Of a DNA stretch of 33,779 nucleotides, positions 162 to 20,566 are shown piece after piece. The translations under genes and the position numbers were made by a program. The number at the start of each line of letters is the position of its first letter. The stretch's first letter is position 1. The notes below the pieces were generated by a model. It made no database searches. It had not been told where the DNA came from and saw only the letters and a list, made by a program, of their open reading frames with translations. Source of the stretch: an uncultured Lachnospiraceae bacterium (GTDB taxonomy: Bacteria > Bacillota > Clostridia > Lachnospirales > Lachnospiraceae); the NCBI GenBank assembly GCA_947564645.1, contig CANOCU010000039.1:1-33779 (forward strand), in the 5' to 3' direction.

Positions 162-2603
162 ATGATCGCTCACATTTCAGAGGACGGACTTAATAGAGAA
201 GAAACTGTGGCGGAACATACGAGGAAGACAACGTTCCTGTGCAGAGAGAAGGGAAGGCGGTGCGGACTGGCCCAGGTCATGGCAATGTGCGGTGCCTATC
301 ATGATACCGGCAAGAATAAGAAGGCGTTTGAGGAGTATTTGCGTGCTGATGAAAATATAAGGAAGAAATTACGAGGGACGATCCCACATGCATCGACGGG
401 AGCAAAATATATATACGATCGATATCATGAACATGGCAGTTCCGGGAATACAAAGGTCATGGTTGAAATGATCTCTTATGCGATCGCGGCGCATCACGGA
501 CTGTTTGACTGTGTTGACATAGAACATAGGGATATTTTCTCCGAGAAGCTGGGTGTGGTTGCCGATTATGATGAGGCATGTAAGAATGCGGAAGAGGATT
601 ATCTGGATGAATATTCATTTCAGCTGGAAGAAATGTATTTGGAAGCGGCAGAGGAATTCAATCTGGTATGGAATAAGATAAAAGAATTGTTTGAGAAAGT
701 AAAGCAGTTGCTTCTGTCCGGAAACGATGTGAATGCAGGAGAAGCGGCCGGCAGCTGCAGTCTGTTTTTACTGGCATGTTTACAACGGCTGATCTTATCC
801 ATACTGATCGATGCCGATTGGGAGGCGACCTTCTATTTCATGAGCGGACAGGATACGCTGTCAAAGCTGAGCGATCCTGATACCGGGAAGGTCTTTGAGA
901 AAGCGAAAGAAAATTTTGATGTATATATGTTAAATAAGCAGAGCGCGGTAGATTCCTCCCGCTTGTCTGAGAAGGAGAAGATTATCTTTTGTGCAAGAAA
1001 TGCCTTGCAGGATGAATGCAGACAATTCGGGAGATATGCGGCCGGAATTTACTGTCTGCCTCTGCCGACGGGCGGCGGCAAGACACTAAGCAGCCTGGCC
1101 TACGCGTTGGAGTATTGCAGGAGGCATCCGGAGACGGAGCGCATTATCTATGTCTCTCCTTATATATCGATTTCGGAACAGAATGCGCAGGTATTCCGGG
1201 AGGCCGTCGGCAATGAGGACTGGATCCTGGAACATCATTCCTCTGTCATCAGAAAGGATGAGGACGGCAACGAGGATGATCGGGCAGGCGGCACGTCAAG
1301 ATATGAGATCAACTGGGAAGAACCGTTTATCTGCACCACGTTTGTCCAGTTTATGAATACGCTTTTTTCGGATAAAAGCGAGTCTGTCCGGCGGATGCAT
1401 CGTCTTGTAAATGCGATGGTGATCGTTGATGAAGTGCAGTCGATGCCTTTACAATGTATCCATACGTTCAACTATATGGCTAATTTTTTAAACGCAGTGT
1501 GCAATACCAATATCATTCTGTGTACTGCCACGCAGCCCACACTGGCGGAGGCGAAGTGCCCGGTCTGTTATAGTGCGCCAAAGTATATGATAGAGAATGC
1601 CGCTCAGTGGTTTTACCGGTTTGAGCGGGTAAAGATCCATACGCCTGCGCCGGATGAGAAGTATACCTTTGAGAGCCTGGGAGAGGAAATAGCCGAGCGG
1701 ATAGGAGAGTACCGATCCATTCTTGTGGTCTTAAATACAAAGTCGGCGGTGAGAAACCTGTATGACAGACTGAAGGCGCGGGGTGTTTTGGCAGAGTATC
1801 TTACGACCAATCTGTGTGCGGAACATAGAAGCGATAAGATCAAATCTATTAAGGAGATTCTGGAGAGCGGGCAGGAGCCCATTGTTGTAGTCAGTACGAA
1901 TCTCATCGAGGCGGGAGTTGACATTTCCTTTGCATGTGTCTATCGCTCCATGACAGGGTTGGACAGTCTGGCGCAGACGGCGGGACGGTGCAACAGAAAC
2001 GGGGAGCTGGAGTGGGGGATCATTCGCCTGATCGAACTGGAAGGGGAAAATGCCGGTAATATGGAGGAACTGCAGCAGAAAAAAAGAGCGACGGAAAGTA
2101 TACTCTTTGCATATGACAACAGTGAGAAGACGGAAAGTCTGCTGATGCCCGGATGGATGGACCGCTATTATCGATATGTTTACGCGAATGCTTCAAATAA
2201 AATGAATTTTCCGTTGAAGGAGTTGGACAAGAATATTCTGGAACTGCTTTCCGGAGGGTTCGGACCGGCGCAGAAGAAGAATCTGATGAATCAGGCGTAT
2301 AAGACAGCAGGGCAGGCGTACAGGGTGATAGACGATCATTCTTTTGGTGTGATCGTTCCTTACAAAAAAGGTGAGGAGATCATAGAGGCGATCCGGACAG
2401 CTGCCGATCCGACGGAGATCAAGGCCTGCATAAGGCAGGCGCAGCGCTATACCGTTAATGTAAGAGGAGGGCAGCTTAAGAAGTTTGAGGGACTGATACA
2501 GCCGGTGAGCGATAAGATACCGGGCCTGTATATGGCGGCGGCTCCCGGCGTCTACCATAGAGAATACGGGATATCGCCGGAGTGGGAGACGCTTATATTT
2601 TGA
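162..2603 (+). CDS. cas3: CRISPR-associated helicase/nuclease Cas3, type I-C, with N-terminal HD domain
   Basis: This is the effector nuclease-helicase that Cascade recruits to degrade target DNA after R-loop formation. The N-terminal HD nuclease domain has H19, the H47-D48 pair in YHDTGK, and further histidines in IPHAS and AAHHG. The SF2 helicase part follows: Walker A LPTGGGKT (residues 301-308), a DEVQ motif II (423-426) in place of the usual DEAH/DExH, TATQ motif III (455-458) and motif VI QTAGRCNRNG (from 605). At 813 residues it is the usual single-chain I-C length with no breaks. The ATG at 162 is chosen because AGGAG (150-154) lies 7 nt upstream. It is first in the cas operon, 25 nt before cas5c. 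Confidence 0.97.
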   Translation: MIAHISEDGLNREETVAEHTRKTTFLCREKGRRCGLAQVMAMCGAYHDTGKNKKAFEEYLRADENIRKKLRGTIPHASTGAKYIYDRYHEHGSSGNTKVMVEMISYAIAAHHGLFDCVDIEHRDIFSEKLGVVADYDEACKNAEEDYLDEYSFQLEEMYLEAAEEFNLVWNKIKELFEKVKQLLLSGNDVNAGEAAGSCSLFLLACLQRLILSILIDADWEATFYFMSGQDTLSKLSDPDTGKVFEKAKENFDVYMLNKQSAVDSSRLSEKEKIIFCARNALQDECRQFGRYAAGIYCLPLPTGGGKTLSSLAYALEYCRRHPETERIIYVSPYISISEQNAQVFREAVGNEDWILEHHSSVIRKDEDGNEDDRAGGTSRYEINWEEPFICTTFVQFMNTLFSDKSESVRRMHRLVNAMVIVDEVQSMPLQCIHTFNYMANFLNAVCNTNIILCTATQPTLAEAKCPVCYSAPKYMIENAAQWFYRFERVKIHTPAPDEKYTFESLGEEIAERIGEYRSILVVLNTKSAVRNLYDRLKARGVLAEYLTTNLCAEHRSDKIKSIKEILESGQEPIVVVSTNLIEAGVDISFACVYRSMTGLDSLAQTAGRCNRNGELEWGIIRLIELEGENAGNMEELQQKKRATESILFAYDNSEKTESLLMPGWMDRYYRYVYANASNKMNFPLKELDKNILELLSGGFGPAQKKNLMNQAYKTAGQAYRVIDDHSFGVIVPYKKGEEIIEAIRTAADPTEIKACIRQAQRYTVNVRGGQLKKFEGLIQPVSDKIPGLYMAAAPGVYHREYGISPEWETLIF

Positions 2604-2628
2604 AGGAAACAGAAAGGATGGGTGAGGC

Positions 2629-3375
2629 ATGGACAAGCCGAATATTATTGAATATCGCGTGCATGGGAGATACGCGCTGTTTACGGATCCGCTGTCGAAA
2701 ACAGGCGGAGAGAAGTGCAGCTATCAGGTTCCTACCTACCAGGCGCTGAAGGGGATCACGGAATCCATATACTGGAAACCGACCATAACATGGATTATTG
2801 ACGAATGCCGTATCATGAATCCGATCCTGACGGAATCAAAGGGCATCAGGCCGATCAAGTACGGCGGCGGAAATGATCTGTCTTATTACACTTATCTGCG
2901 GAATGTAGAGTATCAGGTAAGAGCACACTTCGAATGGAATGAGAACCGGAAGGATCTGGCACATGACCGCAACGAGAACAAGCACTATGACATCGCCAGA
3001 AGAATGGTAGAGCGCGGCGGAAGAAGGGATATTTTCCTGGGAGCGAGAGAATGTCAGGGATATGTGGAACCCTGTTCGTTCGGGGAAGAAAAAGGGGCAT
3101 ATGACGGGACGGATCTGTCTTTTGGCATTATGGTGCATGGGATTACCTATCCGGACGAGGCCGACAGGGACGCGGAAAAAGGGAAAATGACCGTACGGCT
3201 CTGGAACGTGCAGATGAGAGACGGCATCATCCGTTTCCTTCGGCCGGAGGCATGTGAGATCAGGCATGTTCTGCGGGATGCAAAGCAGAAGGAATTTGTT
3301 CCGGAAAAGAATTTCAGAGGACTTCAGGAATTTGAGGGAGGTGATCGTGTTGGCGTGGCTGAAAACTTTGGCTGA
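2629..3375 (+). CDS. cas5c: Cas5c (Cas5d), type I-C pre-crRNA endoribonuclease
   Basis: In type I-C there is no Cas6; Cas5c cuts the repeat RNA and stays bound to the crRNA 5' handle in Cascade. The protein (248 aa) has the Cas5 opening [15 protein letters not shown]. Its Tyr48 and Lys118-His119 align with the Tyr-Lys-His catalytic set known from Bacillus halodurans Cas5d, so it should be active. The GGTGAGGC just before the ATG is a reasonable ribosome binding site. The 3' end overlaps the predicted start of cas8c by about 29 nt, which suggests translational coupling. Confidence 0.95.
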
Positions 3376-5284
3376 AACCTATGACGTGTACGCGGATTGG
3401 GCAGGCACTGAACAGAACGACCAGGCCGTGCTGCTGCCGATCTCTCACTCGACGTTCAATGCGCAGATTGAAGTGGTTATCGATCAGGCCGGCAATTTTC
3501 TGAATGCGAGAAAGCTGGAAAAAGGCAGGGATGCCGTTACGATCATTCCGGTCACGGAGGATTCGGCGGCGAGGAGCAGTGGTATCGCGCCGCATCCGTT
3601 ATGCGATAAACTCTGTTATATTGCGGGCGACTATACAGCCTATACCGGCGATGATAAAGAGAAATACTATGAGGCATATATGGGACAGCTGCGGGACTGG
3701 ACGATATCGGAATATACGCATCCTATGATAGAGGCGGTATATCAATATCTGGAGAAAAGAGCGCTGATCCGGGATCTGGTCATGAGCAAGGCGCTGGAAC
3801 TTGACGGTAACGGCAGGCTTACGGATCAGACAAAGATACATGGACTGGGACAGACGGGGGCAAATGTACGTTTCAGAGTGCTTGGGGACAGTATGCCGCA
3901 GGAAGTGTGGAAAAACCAGGAATTGTATAAAAGGTACAGCGATTATTATCAACAAAGATCCGGGGGAAAGAAGCTGTGCTATGCATCCGGAAAAGTGGAG
4001 GCCTGCTCTGATAAACATCCGTCTAAAATACGGAACAGCGCCGACAAGGCAAAGCTGATTTCAGGCAATGACGAGTCCGGATTCACCTACCGCGGTAGGT
4101 TTACCGCAAAGGAACAGGCGGTCTCGGTAAGTTATGATGTATCTCAGAAGGCCCATAATGCGTTGAGATGGCTGCTCCAAAAACAGGGATATACGCGTGA
4201 CGAATCGGCTATTGTCTGTTGGATGACGAACAGGGAGATGCAGCTGCCTGACATGATGCAGGATTCTGTCAACGCTTATCATGGGGTCGATGATTTCGCG
4301 TTTAATTTTGATGATATAGATTCTTATGCGTCTGCGAACACTGCAAAACAGGATACGGGGAAATATTTTACAAGGCAGTTTGGCAATGCGGTAAACGGTT
4401 ATGCGGGGAAGATCAGGGTGGATGACAAAGTGGCCATTATAGCGCTGGATGCCGCTACTACTGGCCGTCTTTCGGTAGTATATTATGACGAGATGGGCGG
4501 CAGGCAGTACATAGAGGCAGTGCTGTACTGGCAGCAGCATTGCAGATGGCGCCGGACCGTCAAAGTGGGAGGCGCAGAAGAAGGTAAGAGAAGGGTTACC
4601 TTCGAGTGTACGCCGTCGCCCAGGGATATGGCGCTGGCGGCATTTGGGGTGCAGCGTTCAGAGTGGCTGGAAGCAGACGGCAAACTTCTCAGAACTACGG
4701 TAAAGCGGCTGCTGCCATGTATAACCGGAAAGAGGGCAGAAATCCCGGAGGATATCATCAGGGCAGCAGTACGGCGCGCTTCCATGCCGCAGACGATGAG
4801 TGATTTTGTCTGGTATAACGACGTGTTATGTGTTGTATGTGCGATGATACGATTTCGATATGAAAGGAGAGGCGGGAGAATGGAAAATTTCCTGAACGAT
4901 AATGTGGATGACCGGAGTGTCTTATTCGGAAGGCTGTTGGCGGTATATGACTATATGGAACAGCGGGCGATGTTTGAGCGTGATGAGACCGGAAAAGTGA
5001 AGGAAAGGCGTACGACCAATGCGAAGCGCTATTGGAATGCTTACAGCAGCAGACCGGCGAAAACATTTAAGACCATTAAACAGAACCTGATTGCCTATGA
5101 AAAGAAGCTGAGTGATTATGACCTGAGCAGATTTGAAGCATGGACCGGTGAGATCATGGCATATATGGACGAAAGCAAGTTTACAAATGCAGCTTTGAGC
5201 GAAATGTATCTGCCCGGATATTATCAACAGATGGAAGCTATGAAAGCGGCATTTCAGAAAAAGAGCAATGTAGAAGAGGCGTAA
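3347..5284 (+). CDS. cas8c: Cas8c (Csd1), type I-C Cascade large subunit
   Basis: The large subunit of type I-C Cascade is responsible for PAM recognition and R-loop stabilisation. The protein starts near [14 protein letters not shown], the typical Csd1 opening, and is about 645 aa, close to family length. The open frame extends upstream to an ATG at 3254, but that would bury about 120 nt inside cas5c. A strong GGAGGTGA at 3337-3344 instead points to a non-ATG start, either GTG 3347 (5 nt after GGAGG) or TTG 3350 (8 nt after). Either overlaps the cas5c end. The last 134 codons contain a separate internal start for Cas11c. Confidence 0.93.
4880..5284 (+). CDS. cas11c: Cas11c, small subunit translated from an internal start within cas8c
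   Basis: Type I-C systems are known to make the Cascade small subunit from an in-frame internal start in the 3' part of cas8c. Here an ATG at 4880 is in the cas8c frame. It is preceded by a purine-rich Shine-Dalgarno, AAGGAGAGG (4864-4872), 7 nt upstream. The product would be 134 aa, starting [13 protein letters not shown], and is rich in predicted helix with many Lys/Arg and Tyr residues, as expected of a non-target-strand-binding small subunit. It shares its stop codon with cas8c. The site and length fit the known arrangement; translation itself is inferred. Confidence 0.8.
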   Translation: MENFLNDNVDDRSVLFGRLLAVYDYMEQRAMFERDETGKVKERRTTNAKRYWNAYSSRPAKTFKTIKQNLIAYEKKLSDYDLSRFEAWTGEIMAYMDESKFTNAALSEMYLPGYYQQMEAMKAAFQKKSNVEEA

Positions 5285-5316
5285 GAGAAAATAAAAAGAA
5301 AAGAGAGGATATGTTC

Positions 5317-6162
5317 ATGAGTGCATTTACAAACAAGATTGACTTTGAAGTTCTGGTGATGGTGAAGAATGCGAATCCAAACGGAGACCCGCTGAATGGA
5401 AACCGGCCGCGTGAGACCTATGACGGGTACGGGGAGATATCGGACGTATGCATCAAGCGCAAGATCAGAAACCGGCTGCAGGATATGGGAGAAGCTATTT
5501 TTGTGCAGAGCGATGATCGTTCCGATGACGGCTGCAAAAGTCTTGCGGATCGGGCGAAGAGCAATGAGGCCATGCAGAAAGCATTGAAGAATAAGGACAA
5601 AGATGCCTATGCAGAAGCGGCCTGCGAGAAGTGGATCGATGTGCGCAGTTTCGGCCAGGTGTTTGCCTTTAAAGACGACAGCGTGTCTGTTGGCGTGAGA
5701 GGGCCGGTTTCCGTGCACTCGGCGTTCAGCGTACTGCCGGTCTCGATTGACAGTATGCAGATCACGAAGAGCGTCAACAGTGAGACAAAGGAGAAGAAGT
5801 CTTCCGATACAATGGGTATGAAACATAAAATATACTCGGCGCTCTATGTGATCAAAGGCAGCATTAACCATCAGCTTGCGGAGAAGACGGGATTCAGTGA
5901 CGAAGATGCGGAGAAGATCAAGGAGGCTTTGCGTACGTTATTCGTAAACGACAGTTCCTCTGCAAGACCCGACGGAAGTATGGAAGTATGCAAAGTGTTC
6001 TGGTGGAAACATAACTGTCCTATGGGGCAATATTCCTCCGCAAAGGTACATAGACTCATAAATATTACGGCGAAGAACGACGATCCGAAGGAGTTTGAAG
6101 ATTATAACGTAGAAGTAGATTCTCTGCCGGATCTGGCGCTTGAAGAAATAGAAGGGATTTAG
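5317..6162 (+). CDS. cas7c: Cas7c (Csd2), type I-C Cascade backbone subunit
   Basis: This is the RNA-binding RAMP protein that polymerises along the crRNA spacer to form the Cascade backbone. The hallmark motif NANPNGDPLNGNRPR lies near the N-terminus and is typical of the Csd2/Csh2 Cas7 family. Two in-frame ATGs exist, at 5311 and 5317. The second is preferred because AGAGAGG (5302-5308) is 8 nt from it and only 2 nt from the first. The resulting 281 aa matches the family length. It ends 2 nt before the cas4 start codon. Confidence 0.95.
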   Translation: MSAFTNKIDFEVLVMVKNANPNGDPLNGNRPRETYDGYGEISDVCIKRKIRNRLQDMGEAIFVQSDDRSDDGCKSLADRAKSNEAMQKALKNKDKDAYAEAACEKWIDVRSFGQVFAFKDDSVSVGVRGPVSVHSAFSVLPVSIDSMQITKSVNSETKEKKSSDTMGMKHKIYSALYVIKGSINHQLAEKTGFSDEDAEKIKEALRTLFVNDSSSARPDGSMEVCKVFWWKHNCPMGQYSSAKVHRLINITAKNDDPKEFEDYNVEVDSLPDLALEEIEGI

Positions 6163-6164
6163 GC

Positions 6165-6824
6165 ATGTATTCCGAAGAAGACTATCTGATGCTGTCGGGG
6201 ATCCAGCATTTTGCATTTTGCAGGAGACAGTGGGCTATCATACACATTGAGCAGCAGTGGGCTGAAAATTACAGAACGACTGCGGGGGAACTGATGCACA
6301 AGAAAGCGCATGACGCCGACTCGTTTGAAAAGAGAGGAGATCTGATGATCATCAGAGGAATGCGGATCTCATCCCGTGAGCTTGGATTTAGCGGGCAGTG
6401 TGATGTGGTGGAGTTTCACCGGGATGAAAAGGGTGTCAGTCTGTCTGGCTATGATGGAACCTGGAAGCCTGTGCCCGTGGAATATAAGCACGGAGAACCC
6501 AAAGAAAACAATGCGGATGAATTACAGTTGTGCGCGCAGGCAATCTGCCTTGAAGAAATGTTTCAGACAAATATAGACGGCGGATATTTATATTATGGAC
6601 AGAACAGACGGCGCAGCCATGTGGAATTTACGGACGGCCTGCGGGAAGAAGTGAGGAAGGCAGCGACAGAAATGCATGATCTGTTTCAAAGAGGATACAC
6701 GCCCAATGTCAAACCAGCGAAGAAATGTAAAGCATGTTCATTGGAGAATCTATGTGTTCCCAGACTACGGAAGGCAGTGGGGGTCCGGGCATATATTGAA
6801 CGAGAAATCAGTGAAAGAGATTAG
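6165..6824 (+). CDS. cas4: Cas4, FeS-cluster RecB-like nuclease for spacer acquisition
   Basis: Cas4 works with Cas1-Cas2 to trim prespacers and to select the PAM and orientation. The 219-aa protein has the PD-(D/E)XK core: His45, Asp80 (GQCDVVE), Glu106-x-Lys108 (EYK) and Gln121 in QLCAQA. Four cysteines suit a [4Fe-4S] cluster: C19 near the N-terminus and C188, C191 and C197 near the C-terminus. All key residues are present. The start follows the cas7c stop after only 2 nt, and an AGAAGGG within the cas7c end can serve as ribosome binding site. Confidence 0.96.
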   Translation: MYSEEDYLMLSGIQHFAFCRRQWAIIHIEQQWAENYRTTAGELMHKKAHDADSFEKRGDLMIIRGMRISSRELGFSGQCDVVEFHRDEKGVSLSGYDGTWKPVPVEYKHGEPKENNADELQLCAQAICLEEMFQTNIDGGYLYYGQNRRRSHVEFTDGLREEVRKAATEMHDLFQRGYTPNVKPAKKCKACSLENLCVPRLRKAVGVRAYIEREISERD

Positions 6825-6877
6825 AAATTTAAGGAAAAGAGAGGCAATGTCAGTTTGACTGCAGATGGGGTACTGAT

Positions 6878-7909
6878 ATGCGTAAGTTGCTGAATACGTT
6901 ATATGTTATGACGGAGAATTGCTATTTAACACTTGACGGTGAAAACATCGTGATACAGGATGGCGAGAAGACGTTGGGCAGATTTCCACTCCATACATTG
7001 GAGAACATTATCTGTTTTACATACAAAGGAGCAAGTCCGGCGCTGATGGGAGCCTGTGCAGAGCGGAAGATCGGGATGAGCTTCTTTTCGCCCAAAGGTG
7101 CATTTTGGGCCCGGGTTGTGGGAAAAGAATATGGCAATGTGCTTCTTAGAAAGGAACAGTATCGAATATCGGATGATGAGGAGAGAAGTGTTGCATACGC
7201 CGGGAATATGATCGTCGGGAAGGTATTTAACTGCAGATGGAGCATAGAGCGTACCCTGCGTGACCATGCATTCCGGGTGGATGCCGAAAGACTGAAACAG
7301 GTATCAAATATTTTGTATGAAACACTGCCTAAGATAGACAGCAAACTTCAACTGGACGAACTGAGGGGAATAGAAGGAAAGGCGGCAGAGCAGTATTTTT
7401 CCGTGTTTAATGAAATGATATTAAATCAGAAGGATGCCTTTACATTCACCACAAGGAATCGCAGGCCGCCTCTTGACAATATCAATGCCATATTATCGTT
7501 TGCTTATACAATACTTGCCGGAGACTGTGCTAATGCACTGTCAAGTGTGGGATTGGATCCGTATGTCGGATTCATGCACGGGGACAGACCTGGACGGACA
7601 TCCCTTGCACTGGATCTGATGGAGGAGTTGAGACCGGTATTAGCGGACAGATTTATTCTGACCTTGATAAATACGAAGGCAATCCAGGCATCTCATTTTG
7701 AGAAACAAAAGGATGGTGCGGTATTTTTAAATGATGAGGGCAGAAAGGTATTTTTTGGTGCGTGGCAGAATCATAAGAGGGAGACCATAACACATCCATA
7801 TCTGAAAGAGAAGATTGAATGGGGGTTGGTGCCCTATGTGCAGGCGCTTTTGCTTGCCCGTACGGTACGTGGGGATGTTGAAGAGTATCCGCCGTTCTTG
7901 TGGAAGTAG
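6878..7909 (+). CDS. cas1: Cas1 integrase, type I-C
   Basis: This is the metal-dependent integrase that inserts new spacers at the leader end of the array. The protein (343 aa) has the I-C Cas1 opening MRKLLNTLYVMTE. The metal-binding set is intact: Glu166 in LRGIEGKAAEQYF, His234 in GFMHGDRPGR, and the acidic residues of LDLMEELRP (E249/E250). It is separated from cas4 by 53 nt and from cas2 by 78 nt of apparently non-coding sequence. The ATG at 6878 follows a weak GATGGGG. Confidence 0.96.
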   Translation: MRKLLNTLYVMTENCYLTLDGENIVIQDGEKTLGRFPLHTLENIICFTYKGASPALMGACAERKIGMSFFSPKGAFWARVVGKEYGNVLLRKEQYRISDDEERSVAYAGNMIVGKVFNCRWSIERTLRDHAFRVDAERLKQVSNILYETLPKIDSKLQLDELRGIEGKAAEQYFSVFNEMILNQKDAFTFTTRNRRPPLDNINAILSFAYTILAGDCANALSSVGLDPYVGFMHGDRPGRTSLALDLMEELRPVLADRFILTLINTKAIQASHFEKQKDGAVFLNDEGRKVFFGAWQNHKRETITHPYLKEKIEWGLVPYVQALLLARTVRGDVEEYPPFLWK

Positions 7910-7987
7910 ATGTAGAAGCGGAAGATATATTTTCGTTTGGTTATGTACTGTTAATCAAAATGTGAGAGTGAGAGAATGGAGGTTTAG

Positions 7988-8278
7988 ATGTTGGTATTGA
8001 TCACATATGACGTTTCTACGCAGAATGCAGCAGGTAAGAGCCGTCTTCGCAAGGTTGCCAAGGAGTGCGTAAATTATGGACAGCGTGTCCAGAATTCAGT
8101 ATTTGAGTGTATTTTGGATGCTTCGCAACTGCTGTTATTAAAAGACCGTTTAGTGACACTGATCAATGAGAAAGAAGACAGTCTGCGCTTTTATTATCTG
8201 GGTAATAATTATCGGACAAAAGTGGAACATTTTGGGTGTAAAGCTTCTTATGAAGCCGAGGGAACCTTAATGATATAA
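7988..8278 (+). CDS. cas2: Cas2, adaptation complex subunit
   Basis: Cas2 is a small ferredoxin-fold protein that bridges two Cas1 dimers in the integration complex. It is 96 aa, starting MLVLITYDVST; Asp8 in the first beta strand is the conserved Cas2 acidic residue. The ATG follows GGAGGTTTAG, a good ribosome binding site. The stop codon lies inside the left arm of a 14-bp palindrome (8275-8288) that begins the array leader. Confidence 0.96.
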   Translation: MLVLITYDVSTQNAAGKSRLRKVAKECVNYGQRVQNSVFECILDASQLLLLKDRLVTLINEKEDSLRFYYLGNNYRTKVEHFGCKASYEAEGTLMI

Positions 8279-8444
8279 TCCGGTGCGAGAGACAAGCTGA
8301 CATAGAATGTCCGGGAGGTTCGCACCGGATTATGGTAAGATGATGACGTAGCTTATGAGGTTGTATAGAATAGGGTATGCCATGAATTGGTGGTATTGCC
8401 TAAGCATGAATCACTTTAATGATTAAATATTAGTGATTTTTGCT
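8275..8444 (+). promoter_or_regulatory. CRISPR leader with a cas2-end palindrome and an array-adjacent inverted repeat
   Basis: This stretch between cas2 and the first repeat holds no gene. It starts with a perfect 14-bp inverted repeat (8275-8288 and 8320-8333) that includes the cas2 stop codon. A nested GACAT-AGA-ATGTC (8299-8311) lies between its arms. The rest is AT-rich, and AATCACT (8409-8415) and AGTGATT (8432-8438) form a second inverted repeat ending 6 nt before repeat 1. The position upstream of the intact-repeat end identifies it as the leader. No convincing -35/-10 pair could be fixed. Confidence 0.75.
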
Positions 8445-10326
8445 GTCACTCCCCTCGCGGGAGTGTGGATTGAAATCACAAGACAGCGAGATTGAGGTAT
8501 AGCCATGACTCGTCACTCCCCTCGCGGGAGTGTGGATTGAAATTCCTTTTTCTCCCTCCAAAATCCGATGTATCGCCCGTCACTCCCCTCGCGGGAGTGT
8601 GGATTGAAATTATAATCTGTATATAATATATATCCGCACGCATTGTCACTCCCCTCGCGGGAGTGTGGATTGAAATTGTCACAGGTGCAGTACCATTAAC
8701 TGCCCGCAGGTCACTCCCCTCGCGGGAGTGTGGATTGAAATATCTGAAAATCAGCGACTTGCAGGAACGTGTCGAAGTCACTCCCCTCGCGGGAGTGTGG
8801 ATTGAAATTGTATGAACTATTAGTAATCGAAAATCCGTACCACGTCACTCCCCTCGCGGGAGTGTGGATTGAAATATCTGCTGTGGTTGGAACGAATAGC
8901 TCGGATAAGTCACTCCCCTCGCGGGAGTGTGGATTGAAATATATCTAATCATCCGCAACACCGCCAGACTTGACTGTCACTCCCCTCGCGGGAGTGTGGA
9001 TTGAAATCTCGAACCCAAGAAACGATATATCGCATTCTGCGTCACTCCCCTCGCGGGAGTGTGGATTGAAATTGCCTGACAAGAAACGTTTGTGTACGCT
9101 CCAATCTTGTCACTCCCCTCGCGGGAGTGTGGATTGAAATTTTGTATAAAAGAGTGTTGGCAGAAAGCAATTATGTCACTCCCCTCGCGGGAGTGTGGAT
9201 TGAAATCACTCAAAAGAGTAGCTTGAAATCGTCCCCATAGGTGTCACTCCCCTCGCGGGAGTGTGGATTGAAATTCAAACGGATGGTCGGTGGTTCCGGG
9301 CGTATGATGTCACTCCCCTCGCGGGAGTGTGGATTGAAATTGTATCTCCCAGACTGCATCCGCACCCATAGCCGTCACTCCCCTCGCGGGAGTGTGGATT
9401 GAAATTAAGGTCATAGATCCAAAAACTCCGTCGATAGTGTCACTCCCCTCGCGGGAGTGTGGATTGAAATAAATACCTGCAGGACATTGCGGTAGTCGGT
9501 TCGGGTCACTCCCCTCGCGGGAGTGTGGATTGAAATGTCAAGGCTCATAGCCTTAAACTTCTCGGAAGTGGTCACTCCCCTCGCGGGAGTGTGGATTGAA
9601 ATTCTGGTAAAACTTACAGATGAATGCTACATCAACGTCACTCCCCTCGCGGGAGTGTGGATTGAAATTTTTGCGTAATGGTATCTTGCCATAGGGAAAA
9701 ATGTCACTCCCCTCGCGGGAGTGTGGATTGAAATTGTTATTTTGTTGTTCTTTGTTTGTCCTCCATATGCGTCACTCCCCTCGCGGGAGTGTGGATTGAA
9801 ATTGCGAAAAGTGCGATCGGAGTTAAAGTCACTCCCCTCGCGGGAGTGTGGATTGAAATCCATTTGTACTAAATAACACCGGCACGCTCATCAAGGTCAC
9901 TCCCCTCGCGGGAGTGTGGATTGAAATGTCATAGATAACTTCCGCATCAAACCCCAGTACAGGTCACTCCCCTCGCGGGAGTGTGGATTGAAATACCTCC
10001 TTTAACATTATAATACCACAAGTAACCGGTCACTCCCCTCGCGGGAGTGTGGATTGAAATGCCAAACTGCCGCTTATTCAGCTGATCTACTGTCGTCACT
10101 CCCCTCGCGGGAGTGTGGATTGAAATTGAGCATTAAGACTAAAAGATGACTCAACACCAGAGTCACTCCCCTCGCGGGAGTGTGGATTGAAATTCATAAA
10201 AATTTGCACTTAAAAAAACCAAATCAGTCACTCCCCTCGCGGGAGTGTGGATTGAAATTCTGGCTATTGGTACACCAATGGAAGAAATGGACTGTCACTC
10301 CCCTTCGCGGGAGTGTGGATTGAGAT
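8445..10326 (+). CRISPR. Type I-C CRISPR array: 29 repeats, 28 spacers
   Basis: The repeat is 32 bp, beginning GTCACTCCCC and ending GTGGATTGAAAT. It holds a 6-bp stem (ACTCCC/GGGAGT) with loop CTCGC. By analogy with other I-C systems, Cas5c should cut 3' of this stem, leaving a 5' handle of about 11 nt ending ATTGAAAT. Repeats 1-28 read as identical. Repeat 29 (10294-10326) has an extra T in the loop and GAGAT in place of GAAAT, so it is the leader-distal end. Spacers are 33-36 nt except spacer 21 (9803-9827), which is 25 nt. Spacers appear unique. Transcription from the leader gives + orientation. Confidence 0.98.
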
Positions 10327-10351
10327 AAAGAAAGGGGGGGGCAGCGTGGCA

Positions 10352-15810: not shown

Positions 15811-17799
15811 ATGTATGAGAAACTGTTTACGCCGGTGAAGATCGGTTCGCTTACCATCAAGAACCGGTTTGCCATGGCGCCTATGGGGCCGCTTGGGCTT
15901 TCGGATTCGGAGGGTGGTTTTAACCAGAGGGGGATTGACTATTACACGGAGCGGGCGAAGGGAGGAACGGGTCTGATCATCACGGGCGTTACCTTCTCTG
16001 ACTGTGAGGTGGAGAAGCCGAGTATGCCCAACTGCCCTAATTCCACTTACAATCCGGTGCATTTTATCCGCACGGGACGGGAGATGACGGAGCGGGTACA
16101 TGCCTACGGCAGTAAGATATTTCTGATGATGTCGGGCGGGTTCGGGCGCGTGACGATCCCTACGAATCTGGGAGAGTTTCCGCCGGTGGCGCCTTCGGAG
16201 ATTCCTCACAGATGGCTGGACAAAACCTGCCGGGCGTTGACGGTGGAGGAGATCCACAGCATCGTGAAGTCTTTCGGCGACGGGGCGTACAATGCGAAGC
16301 GCGCAGGCTTCGACGGTGTGGAGATCCATGCGGTGCATGAAGGATATCTGTTGGACCAGTTCGCGATCTCCATGTTCAATCTGCGCACGGACGAGTACGG
16401 CGGTTCTCTGGAGAACAGGCTGCGGTTTGCGAGAGAGGTCGTGGAGGAGATCAAGAACCGGTGCGGACAGGATTTTCCGGTGGCGCTTCGTTTCAGTGTG
16501 AAGAGCATGATCAAAGACTGGCGGGTAGGAGCCTTGCCGGGAGAGGAATTCGAGGAAAAAGGACGGGATATCGAGGAAGGCTTAGAAGCGGCAAAACTGT
16601 TGGCGGCATATGGCTATGACGCGCTAGATACGGACGTGGGAACCTATGACGCGTGGTGGTGGAATCATCCGCCGATGTATCAGGAGAAGGGCCTTTTCCG
16701 TACTTACTGTAAGATGGTGAAGGAGGTCGTGGACGTTCCCGTATTGTGTGCGGGGCGTATGGATGATCCGGATATGGCGCTTGCTTCCCTGGAAAATGGG
16801 GACTGCGACATCATCAGTCTGGGACGGCCTCTGCTGGCGGATCCCGACTATGTCAATAAGCTGCGCGCCGGAAGAAGAGATGAGATCAGGCCCTGCATTT
16901 CCTGTCATGAAGGGTGCATGGGACGGATCCAGGAGTATTCCATGATCAACTGTGCAGTCAATCCGCAGGCTGCTAGAGAGCGGGTGACGGCCTATGAGCC
17001 GATCCTGAAAGCCAAAAAGATCATGATCGTGGGCGGCGGCGTTGCGGGCTGTGAGGCGGCCAGAGTGCTGGCGGTCAGAGGGCATAAGCCGGTGCTTTTC
17101 GAGAAGGGAGCGCAGCTTGGCGGTAATCTTTTACCGGGTGGCGCGCCGGAGTTTAAGGAAGACGATATTGCGCTTGCAAAATGGTATGAGGTACAGCTGC
17201 AGAAGCTGAATGTGCCGCTACAGCTGAATCATGAGGTGACGGCGAAGGAGGCGCTTGACGGCGGCTTTGATGCGGTGATCGTGGCGACAGGCTCCACACC
17301 GAAGGTCTTTTCCCTGGGAGATGATGCGCATACCTATACGGCAGCGGAGGTGCTGCTTGGACAGAAGGACTGCGGGGAAAGTACCGTGGTGATCGGCGGC
17401 GGCCTGGTAGGCTGTGAGACGGCGCTTTGGCTGGCGCAGCATGGGAAGAAGGTTACGATTGTGGAGGCGCTTGATAAGATCCTGGCCGTGAACGGGCCGC
17501 TTTGCCATGCGAATAAGGATATGCTGGAGCAGCTGATCCCTTACAACGGGATCGAAGTGGTGACCGGGGCGAAGGCGAAAGGATATCATGACGGTGTGCT
17601 CAGCGTGGAGTGTGCGGACGGCGGGAAGGATATTGCCTGCGACAGCGTAATCCTGTCCGTCGGTTACAAGGAGGAAGATACGCTTTATCACGAGTTGGAG
17701 TTCGAAGTGCCGGAGATTTATCTGTTGGGCGATGCGAAGAAGGTGAGCAATATCATGTATGCGATCTGGGATGCGTTTGAGGTCGCGAATCATATCTAA
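15811..17799 (+). CDS. NADH:flavin oxidoreductase, Old Yellow Enzyme / 2,4-dienoyl-CoA reductase family
   Basis: This is a 662-aa anaerobic multi-cofactor reductase. Residues 1-340 form the FMN TIM barrel (LFTPVKIGSLTIKNRFAMAP at the start; H173 and H176 in the active-site region). C362, C365, C369 and C381 bind a [4Fe-4S] cluster. A FAD Rossmann motif VGGGVAGCEAA begins at 407, and a second NAD(P)-type motif VVIGGGLVGCETA follows. The architecture is shared by FadH, trimethylamine dehydrogenase and the bile-acid enzymes BaiCD/BaiH. The exact substrate is not decided by sequence, and no other bai genes are nearby. AGGAGGG 7 nt upstream of ATG 15811 sets the start over the longer open frame. 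Likely under the adjacent LysR regulator. Confidence 0.92.
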   Translation: MYEKLFTPVKIGSLTIKNRFAMAPMGPLGLSDSEGGFNQRGIDYYTERAKGGTGLIITGVTFSDCEVEKPSMPNCPNSTYNPVHFIRTGREMTERVHAYGSKIFLMMSGGFGRVTIPTNLGEFPPVAPSEIPHRWLDKTCRALTVEEIHSIVKSFGDGAYNAKRAGFDGVEIHAVHEGYLLDQFAISMFNLRTDEYGGSLENRLRFAREVVEEIKNRCGQDFPVALRFSVKSMIKDWRVGALPGEEFEEKGRDIEEGLEAAKLLAAYGYDALDTDVGTYDAWWWNHPPMYQEKGLFRTYCKMVKEVVDVPVLCAGRMDDPDMALASLENGDCDIISLGRPLLADPDYVNKLRAGRRDEIRPCISCHEGCMGRIQEYSMINCAVNPQAARERVTAYEPILKAKKIMIVGGGVAGCEAARVLAVRGHKPVLFEKGAQLGGNLLPGGAPEFKEDDIALAKWYEVQLQKLNVPLQLNHEVTAKEALDGGFDAVIVATGSTPKVFSLGDDAHTYTAAEVLLGQKDCGESTVVIGGGLVGCETALWLAQHGKKVTIVEALDKILAVNGPLCHANKDMLEQLIPYNGIEVVTGAKAKGYHDGVLSVECADGGKDIACDSVILSVGYKEEDTLYHELEFEVPEIYLLGDAKKVSNIMYAIWDAFEVANHI

Positions 17800-17831
17800 G
17801 GCGGATGCGGTTTAACTTGATGAACAAGGGT

Positions 17832-17864
17832 CGGGCGTTGTGTAAACACAGCGCCTGATTTTTT
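17832..17864 (+). terminator. Intrinsic terminator after the flavin oxidoreductase
   Basis: GGCGTTGTG (17834-17842) pairs with CACAGCGCC (17847-17855) around TAAA, and the stem can extend to 17832/17857. Six Ts follow at 17859-17864. It closes the lysR-oxidoreductase unit. Confidence 0.85.
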
Positions 17865-17880
17865 CTTCGCAAAAATAAAA

Positions 17881-17909
17881 TTGAATAAAGCGTGAATATT
17901 GAGTACAAT
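17881..17909 (+). promoter_or_regulatory. Promoter of the HipA-like kinase / HIRAN cassette
   Basis: TTGAAT (17881-17886), a 17-bp spacer and TACAAT (17904-17909) make a near-consensus sigma-A promoter. A 5' UTR of about 150 nt follows with no credible gene in it. Confidence 0.65.
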
Positions 17910-18064
17910 GGATGAGGAACAAAATCTTAAGAAGCAGTTGCCAGAAATAGGGATTTGATCAGCAAAAAATAATATTTTGGTTAAAGAGTTATTTATCGGA
18001 CTGGTGATATGCGATAATGTATGGCAGATGCATTGTTTGGATCAAATAAAAGGGAACAAAGCTG

Positions 18065-18940
18065 ATGAAAGATTTTTCTAACTGGAAAGAATATGAAGGA
18101 GCATCGGAAGGAAGCGGGCGTAGTGAAAAGCTGTGGCTGATTAATCCGGATACAGCGCAGACAGGTTTGTTTAAATATAAAAAGGATGTTGGGACTACTG
18201 ATCATGTGTCTGAATGCATTGCAAGTGATCTGGCGGGATTAATTGGAATTCCATGCGCACAATTTGAAATAGGATTATTTCACGGGCGGGAAGGTTCTAT
18301 CAGTTATAACATCGTCGGGCATGATGGGATGACGCTGATAGAAGGCATTTACTGTATCAGCCTGTTGCATGTCAATTTTGATGTAGATAGACTGATGGAT
18401 GTCGAAAGTGGTGAAAGATACTCGCTTGAAATGATAGAACAAGTATTGAATATGTTCTGTCTTTTTGAGAAATTTTTACCGGTATTGGTTTTTGATTTTT
18501 TAATTGGAAATACAGACAGGCATCAAAGTAACTGGGCATTGATCATGGAAGATAAAGAATTGAGGTTAAGCCCCTTATATGATAATAGTTCGTCCCTTTG
18601 TGCTTATGTAGCGGAATCAAAGATAGAGCGCTACTTTGGCAGCGACAAACTGTTATGGAGATCATTGGTCGATTCTAAGTCCAGATCTTTGATCAGAATC
18701 CACTCCAATGATCAGAAATTGCCAACACATACAGAAGTACTGCGATATCTACGGCAAAATTATTTTGAACAGACTGTGAGTACGGTAGACAGCATCAGGT
18801 CATCTGTGACAAATGGTAAGATTTGTGCTATACTTGACAAATACAGCGAAGTACTGTCTGAAAGAAGAAAGCTTCTTATAAAGAAATATCTTTTGTCTAA
18901 AATAGAGATCATGCAGGACATTTATTGGGGAAAGGAATAG
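18065..18940 (+). CDS. HipA-type Ser/Thr kinase domain protein (HipT-like, lacking the N-terminal HipA subdomain)
   Basis: The 291-aa protein holds the HipA kinase core. It has a Ser/Gly-rich segment near residues 13-22, an ATP-binding lysine in GLFKYKK (K38), the catalytic loop GNTDRHQSNW (D151, H153, N156), and the metal-binding LSPLYDNSSS (D173). It lacks the N-terminal subdomain of full-length HipA; a similar segment appears in the next gene. HipA-type kinases phosphorylate aminoacyl-tRNA synthetases or other proteins and act as toxins in some toxin-antitoxin systems. No HipB-like helix-turn-helix antitoxin is seen beside it. It is 4 nt from the next gene, so they are co-transcribed. Base composition is AT-richer than the flanks. 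Its target and toxicity are unknown. Confidence 0.82.
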   Translation: MKDFSNWKEYEGASEGSGRSEKLWLINPDTAQTGLFKYKKDVGTTDHVSECIASDLAGLIGIPCAQFEIGLFHGREGSISYNIVGHDGMTLIEGIYCISLLHVNFDVDRLMDVESGERYSLEMIEQVLNMFCLFEKFLPVLVFDFLIGNTDRHQSNWALIMEDKELRLSPLYDNSSSLCAYVAESKIERYFGSDKLLWRSLVDSKSRSLIRIHSNDQKLPTHTEVLRYLRQNYFEQTVSTVDSIRSSVTNGKICAILDKYSEVLSERRKLLIKKYLLSKIEIMQDIYWGKE

Positions 18941-18944
18941 GGCA

Positions 18945-19637
18945 ATGCTACAAAAAGATGGAAGGGACTACTTGTTTTTAATTTGGAAATCTGAGCAGTC
19001 GAGAAAACAGTACATCGTGGGACAGCTGGTAAAGAATGGTCAATATGAGTTCAGATATGCGGAAGAGATCCATGCTGCCATGGAAGATGGCTTTACCCCC
19101 CTGCTCTGTTTTCCAGATATTTTTAAAGTATACAGGGATCAAAAACTTTTTCCGGTTTTTTCAAGCCGTTTACCGGATAAAAGAAGAAAAGATATTCAGA
19201 ATATCCTTAAAAAATATGATCTGGAGCACTATGACGAATACTTGCTTTTAAAGAGAAGCGGCGCCCGACTGCCCATTGACCATTTTGAGTTTATCGATCC
19301 AATAATGAATGTGGACGAAAATATAGAAAGGAAGTTTTTTATTGCGGGAGTCAGGCATTATATTGGCTGTGACGGTGACAACTGTGAGAAATCGATTCCG
19401 GTTACCAGGGGAGATGAGATTGTGCTGCGCAGAGAACCGGGCAATCGCTATGATGATAATGCTGTGCAGATGTTGGATGTTTCTGGTCATTTACTCGGCT
19501 ATATTCCCAGATATTATAGCGAGGGCGTGTCAGGAATGATTGATAGCAATAAGAAAATCACATGTCATGTATCTTATGTCGATCATAAGAAAAATTGTAA
19601 TGAGTGTATCAGAGTCATTCTTAAATGCTTCAAGTGA
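18945..19637 (+). CDS. HIRAN-domain protein with a HipA N-terminal-like segment
   Basis: The 230-aa product has two parts. Residues about 10-95 resemble the N-terminal HipA subdomain: YIVGQLVKNGQYEFRYAEE, then DGFTPLLCFPD and LFPVFSSRLPD. Residues about 129-230 are a HIRAN domain, with FFIAGVRHY, the conserved REPGNRYDDNAVQM, and GHLLGYIPRYYSEGV. HIRAN domains bind DNA 3' ends in eukaryotic HLTF; bacterial stand-alone HIRAN proteins are poorly understood. The start follows the kinase gene by 4 nt with GGAAAGGAATAGGGC as Shine-Dalgarno region. The kinase and this protein together recreate a split HipA, so this one may regulate the kinase. The HipA N-terminal assignment is moderate; the HIRAN call is strong. 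Confidence 0.75.
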   Translation: MLQKDGRDYLFLIWKSEQSRKQYIVGQLVKNGQYEFRYAEEIHAAMEDGFTPLLCFPDIFKVYRDQKLFPVFSSRLPDKRRKDIQNILKKYDLEHYDEYLLLKRSGARLPIDHFEFIDPIMNVDENIERKFFIAGVRHYIGCDGDNCEKSIPVTRGDEIVLRREPGNRYDDNAVQMLDVSGHLLGYIPRYYSEGVSGMIDSNKKITCHVSYVDHKKNCNECIRVILKCFK

Positions 19638-19671
19638 AGCCAAAGAAGAGTGCCTTTGGGAATCATTATGT

Positions 19672-19715
19672 AAAAGCAGGAAACCAAATACTGAAGTTAT
19701 CCTGCTTTTGTTTTT
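19672..19715 (+). terminator. Intrinsic terminator closing the kinase/HIRAN cassette
   Basis: AAAAGCAGGA (19672-19681) pairs perfectly with TCCTGCTTTT (19700-19709), followed by GTTTTTG. The loop is 18 nt. Confidence 0.8.
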
Positions 19716-19795
19716 GTAAAACTGGCATGTATTCGGGAGGATAAATGAGCGTACCCGTGCCATGCAGCCCAAGCCAAAGAGAGGAGAGCGTGCGG

Positions 19796-20566
19796 ATGAG
19801 TTATTTCACCATATCAATGAAAAAGGTGCTGCACTACAGATGGCATAATCTATTCTGCATCATGGGAAGTTTATTGTCTGTCGCGGCCACCGCTCTTATG
19901 TGGCATTATATTTATTGGGAGGACTGGGAGATGCGGCAGTATATGACGTCCTATGTCATCCTATCCAACCTGATCTCCTTGCTTTATACTTCGCGATATG
20001 CCGACTGTGTTGCGGATAAAGTCTATAAGGGAACCTTTGCGGTGGATCTGCTGCGTCCGGTCAGTTTCCTGAAGTTGAATTTCATTGAGACGGCCGGGGA
20101 AACGGCGGCGGAAGTGATCGTGAGAGGAATACCCACCGGCGCCGTGCTTTTCTACTTCTACCGGGAGCAGATCAAAAGAATCGAGCCGGGGTATGCGCTG
20201 TTAGGCGCCGCCGCCGTTTTTCTTGCCTTTCTGTTCTATATGATGGCGTTTACGGTGATCGGATTTCTGGCGTTCCGGTTTTATGAGATCTGGCCGTTCA
20301 ATAGACTGCTGAATGACACGATACGGTTTTTCTCGGGCTGCTTTATCCCGCTCGCGCTGTTCCCGGCGTGGATGCAGACGCCGGTACGGCTGATGCCTTT
20401 TCAGTATCTGTATTCTTTTCCGATCGAGCTGATCTTAAAGGGGAGCGGCTGTGTAAATATCGGATGGAATTTCGCGATACTGGGCGTGTGGGATATCGGA
20501 ATGGCGGCGGTGCTGGCGCTGGTATACAGGAAAGCGCTGCTGCACTGTGTCGTACAGGGCGGATGA
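19796..20566 (+). CDS. ABC-2 type exporter permease, first subunit
   Basis: A 256-aa membrane protein beginning MSYFTISMKKVLHYRWHNLF, with about six hydrophobic segments, for example LLGAAAVFLAFLFYMMAF. It belongs to the ABC-2 permease group found as two different permeases plus one ATPase, often annotated as daunorubicin- or viologen-type exporters. The start at 19796 has AGAGGAG 9 nt upstream and gives the usual N-terminus; an ATG at 19745, also with a Shine-Dalgarno, would add 17 residues. Membrane location is clear; the exported substrate is unknown. Confidence 0.82.
   Translation: MSYFTISMKKVLHYRWHNLFCIMGSLLSVAATALMWHYIYWEDWEMRQYMTSYVILSNLISLLYTSRYADCVADKVYKGTFAVDLLRPVSFLKLNFIETAGETAAEVIVRGIPTGAVLFYFYREQIKRIEPGYALLGAAAVFLAFLFYMMAFTVIGFLAFRFYEIWPFNRLLNDTIRFFSGCFIPLALFPAWMQTPVRLMPFQYLYSFPIELILKGSGCVNIGWNFAILGVWDIGMAAVLALVYRKALLHCVVQGG

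Follow-up and report, generated by a model that had tools for sequence, protein, structure and literature searches.

An intact hipIN gene pair, encoding a HipA-type kinase and a HipS-like/HIRAN protein, in an uncultured Lachnospiraceae bacterium

Introduction

In a 33,779-nt stretch of DNA from an uncultured Lachnospiraceae bacterium (contig CANOCU010000039.1 of assembly GCA_947564645.1, positions 1 to 33,779 of the forward strand; hereafter, the window), two adjoining genes encode a short HipA-type Ser/Thr kinase and a protein that joins a HipS-like part to a HIRAN domain. To what kind of system does this pair belong, and could its HIRAN domain control the kinase? The original prediction, made by a model from the sequence letters, considered the pair a candidate under-described toxin-antitoxin or defence module, in which DNA ends or damage, for example phage DNA, would control the kinase. 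As judged from its genes and their products, the pair belongs to the hipIN modules, in which HipI is the kinase and HipN a putative antitoxin, and corresponds to the PADLOC candidate system PDC-M03. The locus is a compact, intact example of an already published kind and is not under-described: hipIN was named by Gerdes, Baerentsen and Brodersen (2021, mBio, PMC8262856), who termed HipN a putative antitoxin, and PDC-M03 is present in PADLOC-DB. These authors also postulated that abortive infection might follow when the HIRAN domain recognises the ends of incoming phage DNA and the kinase becomes active. The original prediction had arrived independently at this hypothesis of the hipIN discoverers.

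Identity of the hipI-hipN pair

Both open reading frames (ORFs) are intact and lie on the + strand, hipI at 18065-18940 (291 aa) and hipN at 18945-19637 (230 aa), with a 4-nt gap between the hipI stop and the hipN start. HipI proteins have been described as 279-321 aa long, with the core Hip motifs and without N-subdomain-1 (PMC8262856). The window HipI has a length within this range and the core Hip motifs, its structural model comprises the kinase core only, and the gene downstream encodes a HipS-like part followed by a HIRAN domain; set against the hipIN passages of PMC8262856, the window pair displayed no measurable difference. Additionally, the PADLOC-DB models PDC-M03A and PDC-M03B, which bear no description, match HipI (expectation value, E, 2.4e-124) and HipN (residues 1-228, E 3.5e-104) end to end, and the two genes adjoin as the PDC-M03 definition requires. 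A search of the open-licence literature found no paper on PDC-M03 and no experimental test or functional datum for any hipIN, preprints outside PMC not being covered.

As originally proposed, the kinase gene comes first and no helix-turn-helix (HTH) gene adjoins the pair, whose neighbours are an Oxidored_FMN gene before it and ABC-2 permease genes (ABC2_membrane_6) after it. No Rfam family matched the window at its gathering score.

The kinase HipI

HipI matches Pfam HipA_C with an E of 2.4e-12, above the Pfam cut-off. The catalytic loop D151-R-H-Q-S-N156 (18515-18532, + strand) and the metal-binding Asp D173 (18581-18583, + strand) are exactly as the D151-R-H-x-x-N156 loop and D173 had been claimed. 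Based on two HipI alignments, A1 with 14 rows and A4 with 19 rows, we found D151, R152, H153, N156, D173, K22, K37, E50 and G18 to be invariant (14/14 and 19/19). The Gly-rich (ATP) loop GSGRSEK is located at 18110-18130 on the + strand and occupies residues 16-22; because it sits so close to the N-terminus, HipI lacks N-subdomain-1, which bears out the claim that the N-terminal HipA subdomain is missing. A Ser or Thr next to this loop is a hipIN trait, and the window HipI has two Ser, S17 and S20, around G18. The AlphaFold2 model of HipI, built from an alignment of 19 sequences, contains the kinase core only and has a predicted local distance difference test score (pLDDT) of 91.6 and a predicted template modelling score (pTM) of 0.91.

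HipN and its HIRAN pocket

The proposal that the second gene supplies the missing HipA part fused to a HIRAN domain agrees with both the profile matches and the modelled fold. Residues 23-109 of HipN match Pfam Couple_hipA, the HipA N-terminal domain, with an E of 5.5e-6, and residues 131-209 match Pfam HIRAN with an E of 1.1e-14, both above cut-off; the score against NCBIfam couple_hipA was under that model's cut-off. In the AlphaFold2 model (pLDDT 88.0, pTM 0.79; alignment of 18 sequences), residues 7-120 adopt the HipS/HipA-N fold and residues 123-230 the HIRAN fold, with HLTF and Rad5 among the fold matches of the latter. These domains are encoded at 18963-19304 and 19311-19634, respectively, on the + strand.

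The HIRAN domain of HLTF uses Tyr72 and Tyr93 to sandwich a single-stranded dinucleotide (PMC4666394). HLTF Tyr93 aligns with HipN Tyr169, which is part of the pocket motif N167-R-Y169-D170-D-N-A173 (19443-19463, + strand). The counterpart of HLTF Tyr72 is presumably HipN His138, a register set by motif only. We compared these positions in two HipN alignments, A3 with 18 rows and A2 with 15 rows, some rows being common to both. N167 is invariant in A3 and A2, and D170 in A3 (18/18), with 13/15 in A2; His, Tyr or Phe occupies position 138 throughout (18/18 and 15/15), and an aromatic residue or His occupies position 169 in 17/18 and 13/15 rows. The predicted HIRAN pocket residues thus appear to be mostly kept in HipN.

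Distribution in genomes and kinase phylogeny

In the genus of the window, a close full-length HipI is present in 4 of 77 genomes (G000, G062, G074 and G044), and any HipA-like match at E 0.001 in 29 of the 77. The family sample contained a HipN match of at least 174 of 230 residues at no less than 57% identity in 9/397 genomes and a close intact HipI (E < 1e-100) in 6/397, with HipN adjoining in all six. At the phylum level, a near-full-length HipN was found in 7 of 398 genomes, the window included, and HipI is adjacent in six. G062 and G074 carry the pair at the chromosomal location seen in the window, following the same oxidoreductase gene; the DNA common to the three runs from 18002 to ~19630, the G074 contig ending inside hipN. 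Genome G043 has the oxidoreductase gene, no HipI match and no pair.

In a tree of 57 kinases, all 33 with a HIRAN-type partner fall on one side of a single branch. This distribution requires one change of partner type versus a mean of 18.6 in shuffles, none of 500 shuffles being as low, in a set whose rows include near-copies. The branch that separates the 33 has modest support (74/71), and a 100/100 branch separates the 33 plus the long row L087 from the other 23 kinases. The window kinase lies deep in the HIRAN-partnered set, within nested starred sets of 2, 3 and 7 rows that are all HIRAN-partnered. The hipI-hipN gap was computed for 32 of the 33 pairs by choosing start codons automatically, a choice at odds with the annotation in at least two of the plasmid pairs; the gap ranges from -14 to +17 nt for 31 pairs and is +61 nt for the remaining one. 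The two-gene neighbourhood is therefore conserved in other genomes, as seen in this tree and in the viral contigs described below. This neighbourhood and the structural match of the N-terminal part of HipN were two outcomes whose absence would have refuted the original prediction.

An ORF of ~330 aa lies directly upstream of hipI in three other loci, namely L158 (8213-9193, G044), L162 (4509-5507, G343) and L060 (1847-2830, G339). It had no Pfam or PADLOC match in the two copies tested and is not found upstream of the window hipI.

Carriage by phages and plasmids

Profile scans of IMG/VR retrieved 19 distinct contigs with either gene, 18 of which carry both, adjacent and kinase first, the nineteenth being the HipS-only L121; IMG/VR is viral by design, so 18/19 is not an enrichment figure. 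An integrase gene is located within ~1.1 kb downstream in four of these 18 pairs. In the C. difficile phage phiCDKH02, hipIN adjoins an integrase gene. Matches to both genes also occur in four Vibrio phage records, of which the two examined are tailless Vinavirales with the pair beside the integrase. In single-protein scans of viral contigs, three stretches per protein were returned, none of them a relative.

Five plasmid records have a HipN match. Among the four examined, the pair is present in Rhodococcus, Mycolicibacterium TY66 and Nostoc, in which match H2 is a full pair, and the Oscillatoria plasmid has hipN only. On the Rhodococcus plasmid, a type I-like restriction-modification cluster houses the pair, with the subunit S gene on one side and the methyltransferase gene on the other. 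A DNA-level plasmid search with 17800-19745 gave no match.

We additionally ran PADLOC on 10 neighbouring proteins from six loci picked by eye, so the four positive loci are anecdotes: Septu PtuA/PtuB (L133), PD-Lambda-1 (L137), a type II methyltransferase (L136) and a SIR2 protein (L158). Nothing clear was found by PADLOC among the neighbours in L134 and L162.

Two phage loci hold only part of this architecture. In the Clostridioides phage record CP067352.1 (H32; L139, 2869-4024), a distant kinase gene is followed by a HipS-like gene without HIRAN, a layout resembling the published hipJS; this record had been taken as a kinase-only phage until the HipS-like gene was found behind the kinase, and that candidate was rejected. 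On a 63.7-kb phage contig, L121 (4944-5366) is a HipS-like ORF only, of 140 aa and 53% identical to the HipS-like half of HipN, located between the genes for the terminase large subunit and the portal. It is a candidate phage antidote against hipIN kinases, or a remnant.

Proposed mechanism

Our best reading, which we hold with moderate confidence, is that HipN restrains HipI until its HIRAN domain binds abnormal DNA. By analogy with HipA and HipT, free HipI would arrest growth by phosphorylating a core component of the cell. From its fold and the gene pairing, the HipS-like domain of HipN would dock at the place of HipA N-subdomain-1 and keep HipI inactive. The HIRAN domain would act as the trigger, taking up an exposed DNA 3' end or a single-stranded dinucleotide that arises on phage DNA entry, replication or damage; this uptake would loosen the HipS-like domain from HipI and lead to abortive infection or dormancy. 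In our judgement, restraint of HipI by HipN is quite likely, gating of HipI by DNA through HIRAN is plausible at roughly even chances, and on a mainly anti-phage role of hipIN our opinion is evenly divided.

A characterised comparison is HipBST. In E. coli HipBST, HipS blocks HipT through Trp65, which is inserted beside the Gly-rich loop, and this Trp is kept in some, not all, HipS proteins (PMC10627512, in its account of HipS); the HipS of a second HipBST system displaces the P-loop and blocks ATP (PMC9325769, in its description of that system). The anatomy originally proposed and the analogy to split HipBST are both correct. The window pair differs from HipBST in that the kinase comes first, HipB is lacking, the HipS-like part is fused to HIRAN and there is no counterpart of Trp65. 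Membership in HipBST was rejected because the locus has no HTH HipB, no B-S-T order, no stand-alone HipS and no Trp65.

Alternative explanations

The branch next to the HIRAN-partnered kinases includes six with HipP-like partners (L065, L068, L074, L077, L079 and L080), all six of which align and consist of a HipS-like N-terminal part and a resolvase-like C-terminal part. Two were tested against Pfam: the L074 partner has a clear Resolvase and resolvase-HTH match, and the L065 partner a weak Resolvase match under cut-off. The HipP-type N-terminal part matches the HipS-like domain of HipN in a profile comparison (E 2.3e-5). These six partners look like the HipP of hipMP as outlined in PMC8262856, section 16 of which makes no mention of this. 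This similarity suggests that one HipS-like brake may have been combined with different DNA-handling modules.

The same observation bears on a plainer alternative, in which hipIN is a toxin-antitoxin addiction module whose HIRAN domain replaces the HTH for DNA holding or autorepression, with no sensing of damage or phage. Since related short kinases pair with HipS-like plus resolvase-like proteins, the second half of the partner perhaps need only bind DNA; the absence of an HTH gene at the locus, the autoregulation described for other Hip modules (PMC8262856, in its passages on them) and the carriage of the pair by phages and plasmids fit an addiction module as well. Against it, the ligands of the HIRAN domains studied so far are DNA ends or a dinucleotide and not any named operator, according to the HIRAN passages of PMC8262856 and PMC4666394; the pocket positions are mostly kept, and no obvious operator stood out when the short block conserved upstream was inspected by eye. 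We regard an addiction module without sensing as possible and somewhat improbable.

Loss of the kinase informs a second alternative. In G104, the kinase gene is deleted except for approximately its last 25 bases, and a hipN of 230 aa remains intact at the same site as in the genus mate G422, the two genomes sharing 1.4 kb at 86% identity. The differences between the two hipN genes are mostly silent, with a ratio of nonsynonymous to synonymous substitution rates (dN/dS) of 0.077. By parsimony, and depending on the outgroup, silent changes on the G104 branch number 21 or 28 and amino-acid changes 11 or 7; on the G422 branch, which leads to an intact pair, the two outgroups give 29 or 29 silent and 9 or 13 amino-acid changes. 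Because change is silent-rich on both branches, no relaxation is visible in the G104 hipN. The other two orphan hipN genes are in G520 and on the Oscillatoria plasmid, for which the missing kinase was sought 1.5 kb and 2.5 kb upstream, respectively; on the plasmid, a weak C-terminal kinase remnant (E 0.0056) was detected. Taken together, the comparative evidence favours a toxin and its putative antidote carried by phages.

Could HipN instead be a targeting subunit and not an inhibitor, bringing HipI to DNA ends or stalled forks to phosphorylate a repair or replication protein? HIRAN belongs to the fork-remodelling HLTF and to Rad5, as recovered in our fold matches (see also the HLTF account in PMC4666394). 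HipL, as presented in PMC8262856, has the same three domains in the same order (kinase, HipS-like, HIRAN) on one polypeptide, as a recruited enzyme could, whereas the window has two polypeptides. Nevertheless, the HipS-like domain shares its fold with a protein proven to inhibit its kinase (PMC10627512, in its account of HipS), and the persistence of hipN where the kinase is deleted is unexpected for a pure targeting role, which makes this explanation quite unlikely. As a side observation on HipL, residues 329-528 of the 547-aa phage protein family phrog_26212 match HipN, and this family may be a phage-borne, one-chain HipL-like form.

A decayed or neutral passenger, that is, a mobile-element remnant without present function in its host, is very improbable, since both window ORFs are intact and keep every motif, with low dN/dS for HipI and HipN, even if the pair is patchy (the 4/77 genus genomes given above) and other copies are degenerate: both genes are damaged in G442 and G048, and G376 combines a truncated kinase with a hipN broken by a short insert with inverted ends (L031, ~2044-2154, located by eye).

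Evidence against the proposed mechanism

Several observations weigh against a HipN that restrains HipI until HIRAN meets abnormal DNA. Regarding the restraint, HipS Trp65 has no counterpart in HipN, whose sole Trp, W14, is near the N-terminus; the inhibition mode of HipBST is therefore not directly transferable, and any inhibition of HipI must use a contact other than the Trp65 wedge. Regarding the trigger, two actinobacterial HipNs of A2 have D170 changed to Asn and position 169 to Ser and Val. DNA sensing may thus not be general, and these changes are consistent with the remark in PMC8262856 that actinobacterial HipN lacks the DNA motifs.

Regarding the biology, four other of the 18 phage copies (L112, L115, L116 and L119) lie between the terminase and portal genes, in late-gene order, an odd position for a self-restrained suicide switch. 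Five chromosomal loci of the same family (L159-L163) are found, by eye, among housekeeping genes and not in defence islands, and the defence-neighbour matches come from an uncontrolled, hand-picked sample. No kinase of the HIRAN-partnered branch without HipN was found, versus three orphan hipN genes plus the HipS-only L121, counts that are too small for significance. Finally, silent sites are near saturation in most dN/dS pairs, so the low ratios, 0.075-0.099 for HipI (four pairs) and 0.075-0.125 for HipN (four of five pairs, the fifth not being computable), are rough.

A more specific version of the gated inhibitor is speculative and rather unlikely: a free 3' end held in the HIRAN domain would pull the HipS-like domain off HipI, the module would serve prophages as a weapon against rival phages, and a protein of the L121 type could disarm it.

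Promoter, terminator and flanking genes

The pair was also said to have its own near-consensus promoter and its own terminator. The promoter site at 17881-17909 has only a 9/12 match; the region 17000-20500 contains eight such sites versus 6.4 +/- 2.5 in shuffles, and the site lies upstream of 18002, the start of the DNA block in common with the two nearest relatives. With no excess over shuffles and a location outside the conserved block, it was rejected. A better promoter candidate is the putative extended -10 element TGcGATAAT at 18010-18018 on the + strand, which is identical in the two nearest relatives and inside the conserved block. The claim of a terminator after the pair fares better: a terminator-like hairpin (19671-19710) with a T-run extends over 19671-19715 on the + strand, and its 51-nt piece has a fold energy of -13.8 kcal/mol, with a z of -4.0 and 0/200 shuffles as good. 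A simple terminator scan, which considered loops of 3-8 only, overlooked this hairpin.

A type I-C-like locus of clustered regularly interspaced short palindromic repeats (CRISPR) and cas genes occupies positions 162-10333 of the window, 7.7 kb upstream of the pair. Based on Pfam and PADLOC matches, it includes cas3 (162-2603), cas5 (2629-3375), cas7 (5311-6162) and cas1 (6878-7909); cas8 (3254-5284) and cas4 (6165-6824) are assigned from gene order and are thus putative. The CRISPR array, from 8445 to ~10333, is made up of 28 perfect repeats of 32 nt and one degenerate repeat, with 27 distinct spacers between the perfect repeats. None of these 27 spacers matched, at E 0.01, a set of loci collected for comparison. 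Genome G074 retains all six cas genes upstream; a search of 19.5 kb in G062 yielded none of them.

Significance

To the published account of hipIN, this analysis adds the pairing of the two genes on IMG/VR contigs, named phages that carry the pair, a case of kinase loss, the conservation of the pocket and the missing counterpart of Trp65. The orphan hipN, the HipS-only phage ORF, the mostly kept pocket residues and the missing tryptophan provide comparative handles on the module. With a DNA-end-gated switch, the cell would answer a loss of DNA integrity with protein phosphorylation followed by abortive infection, a logic like that of Hachiman with a kinase as the effector; Hachiman HamAB itself combines a helicase sensor with a nuclease effector and has no kinase. 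If the DNA gating of HipI is true, hipIN would represent a new way of coupling DNA integrity to protein phosphorylation in bacteria.

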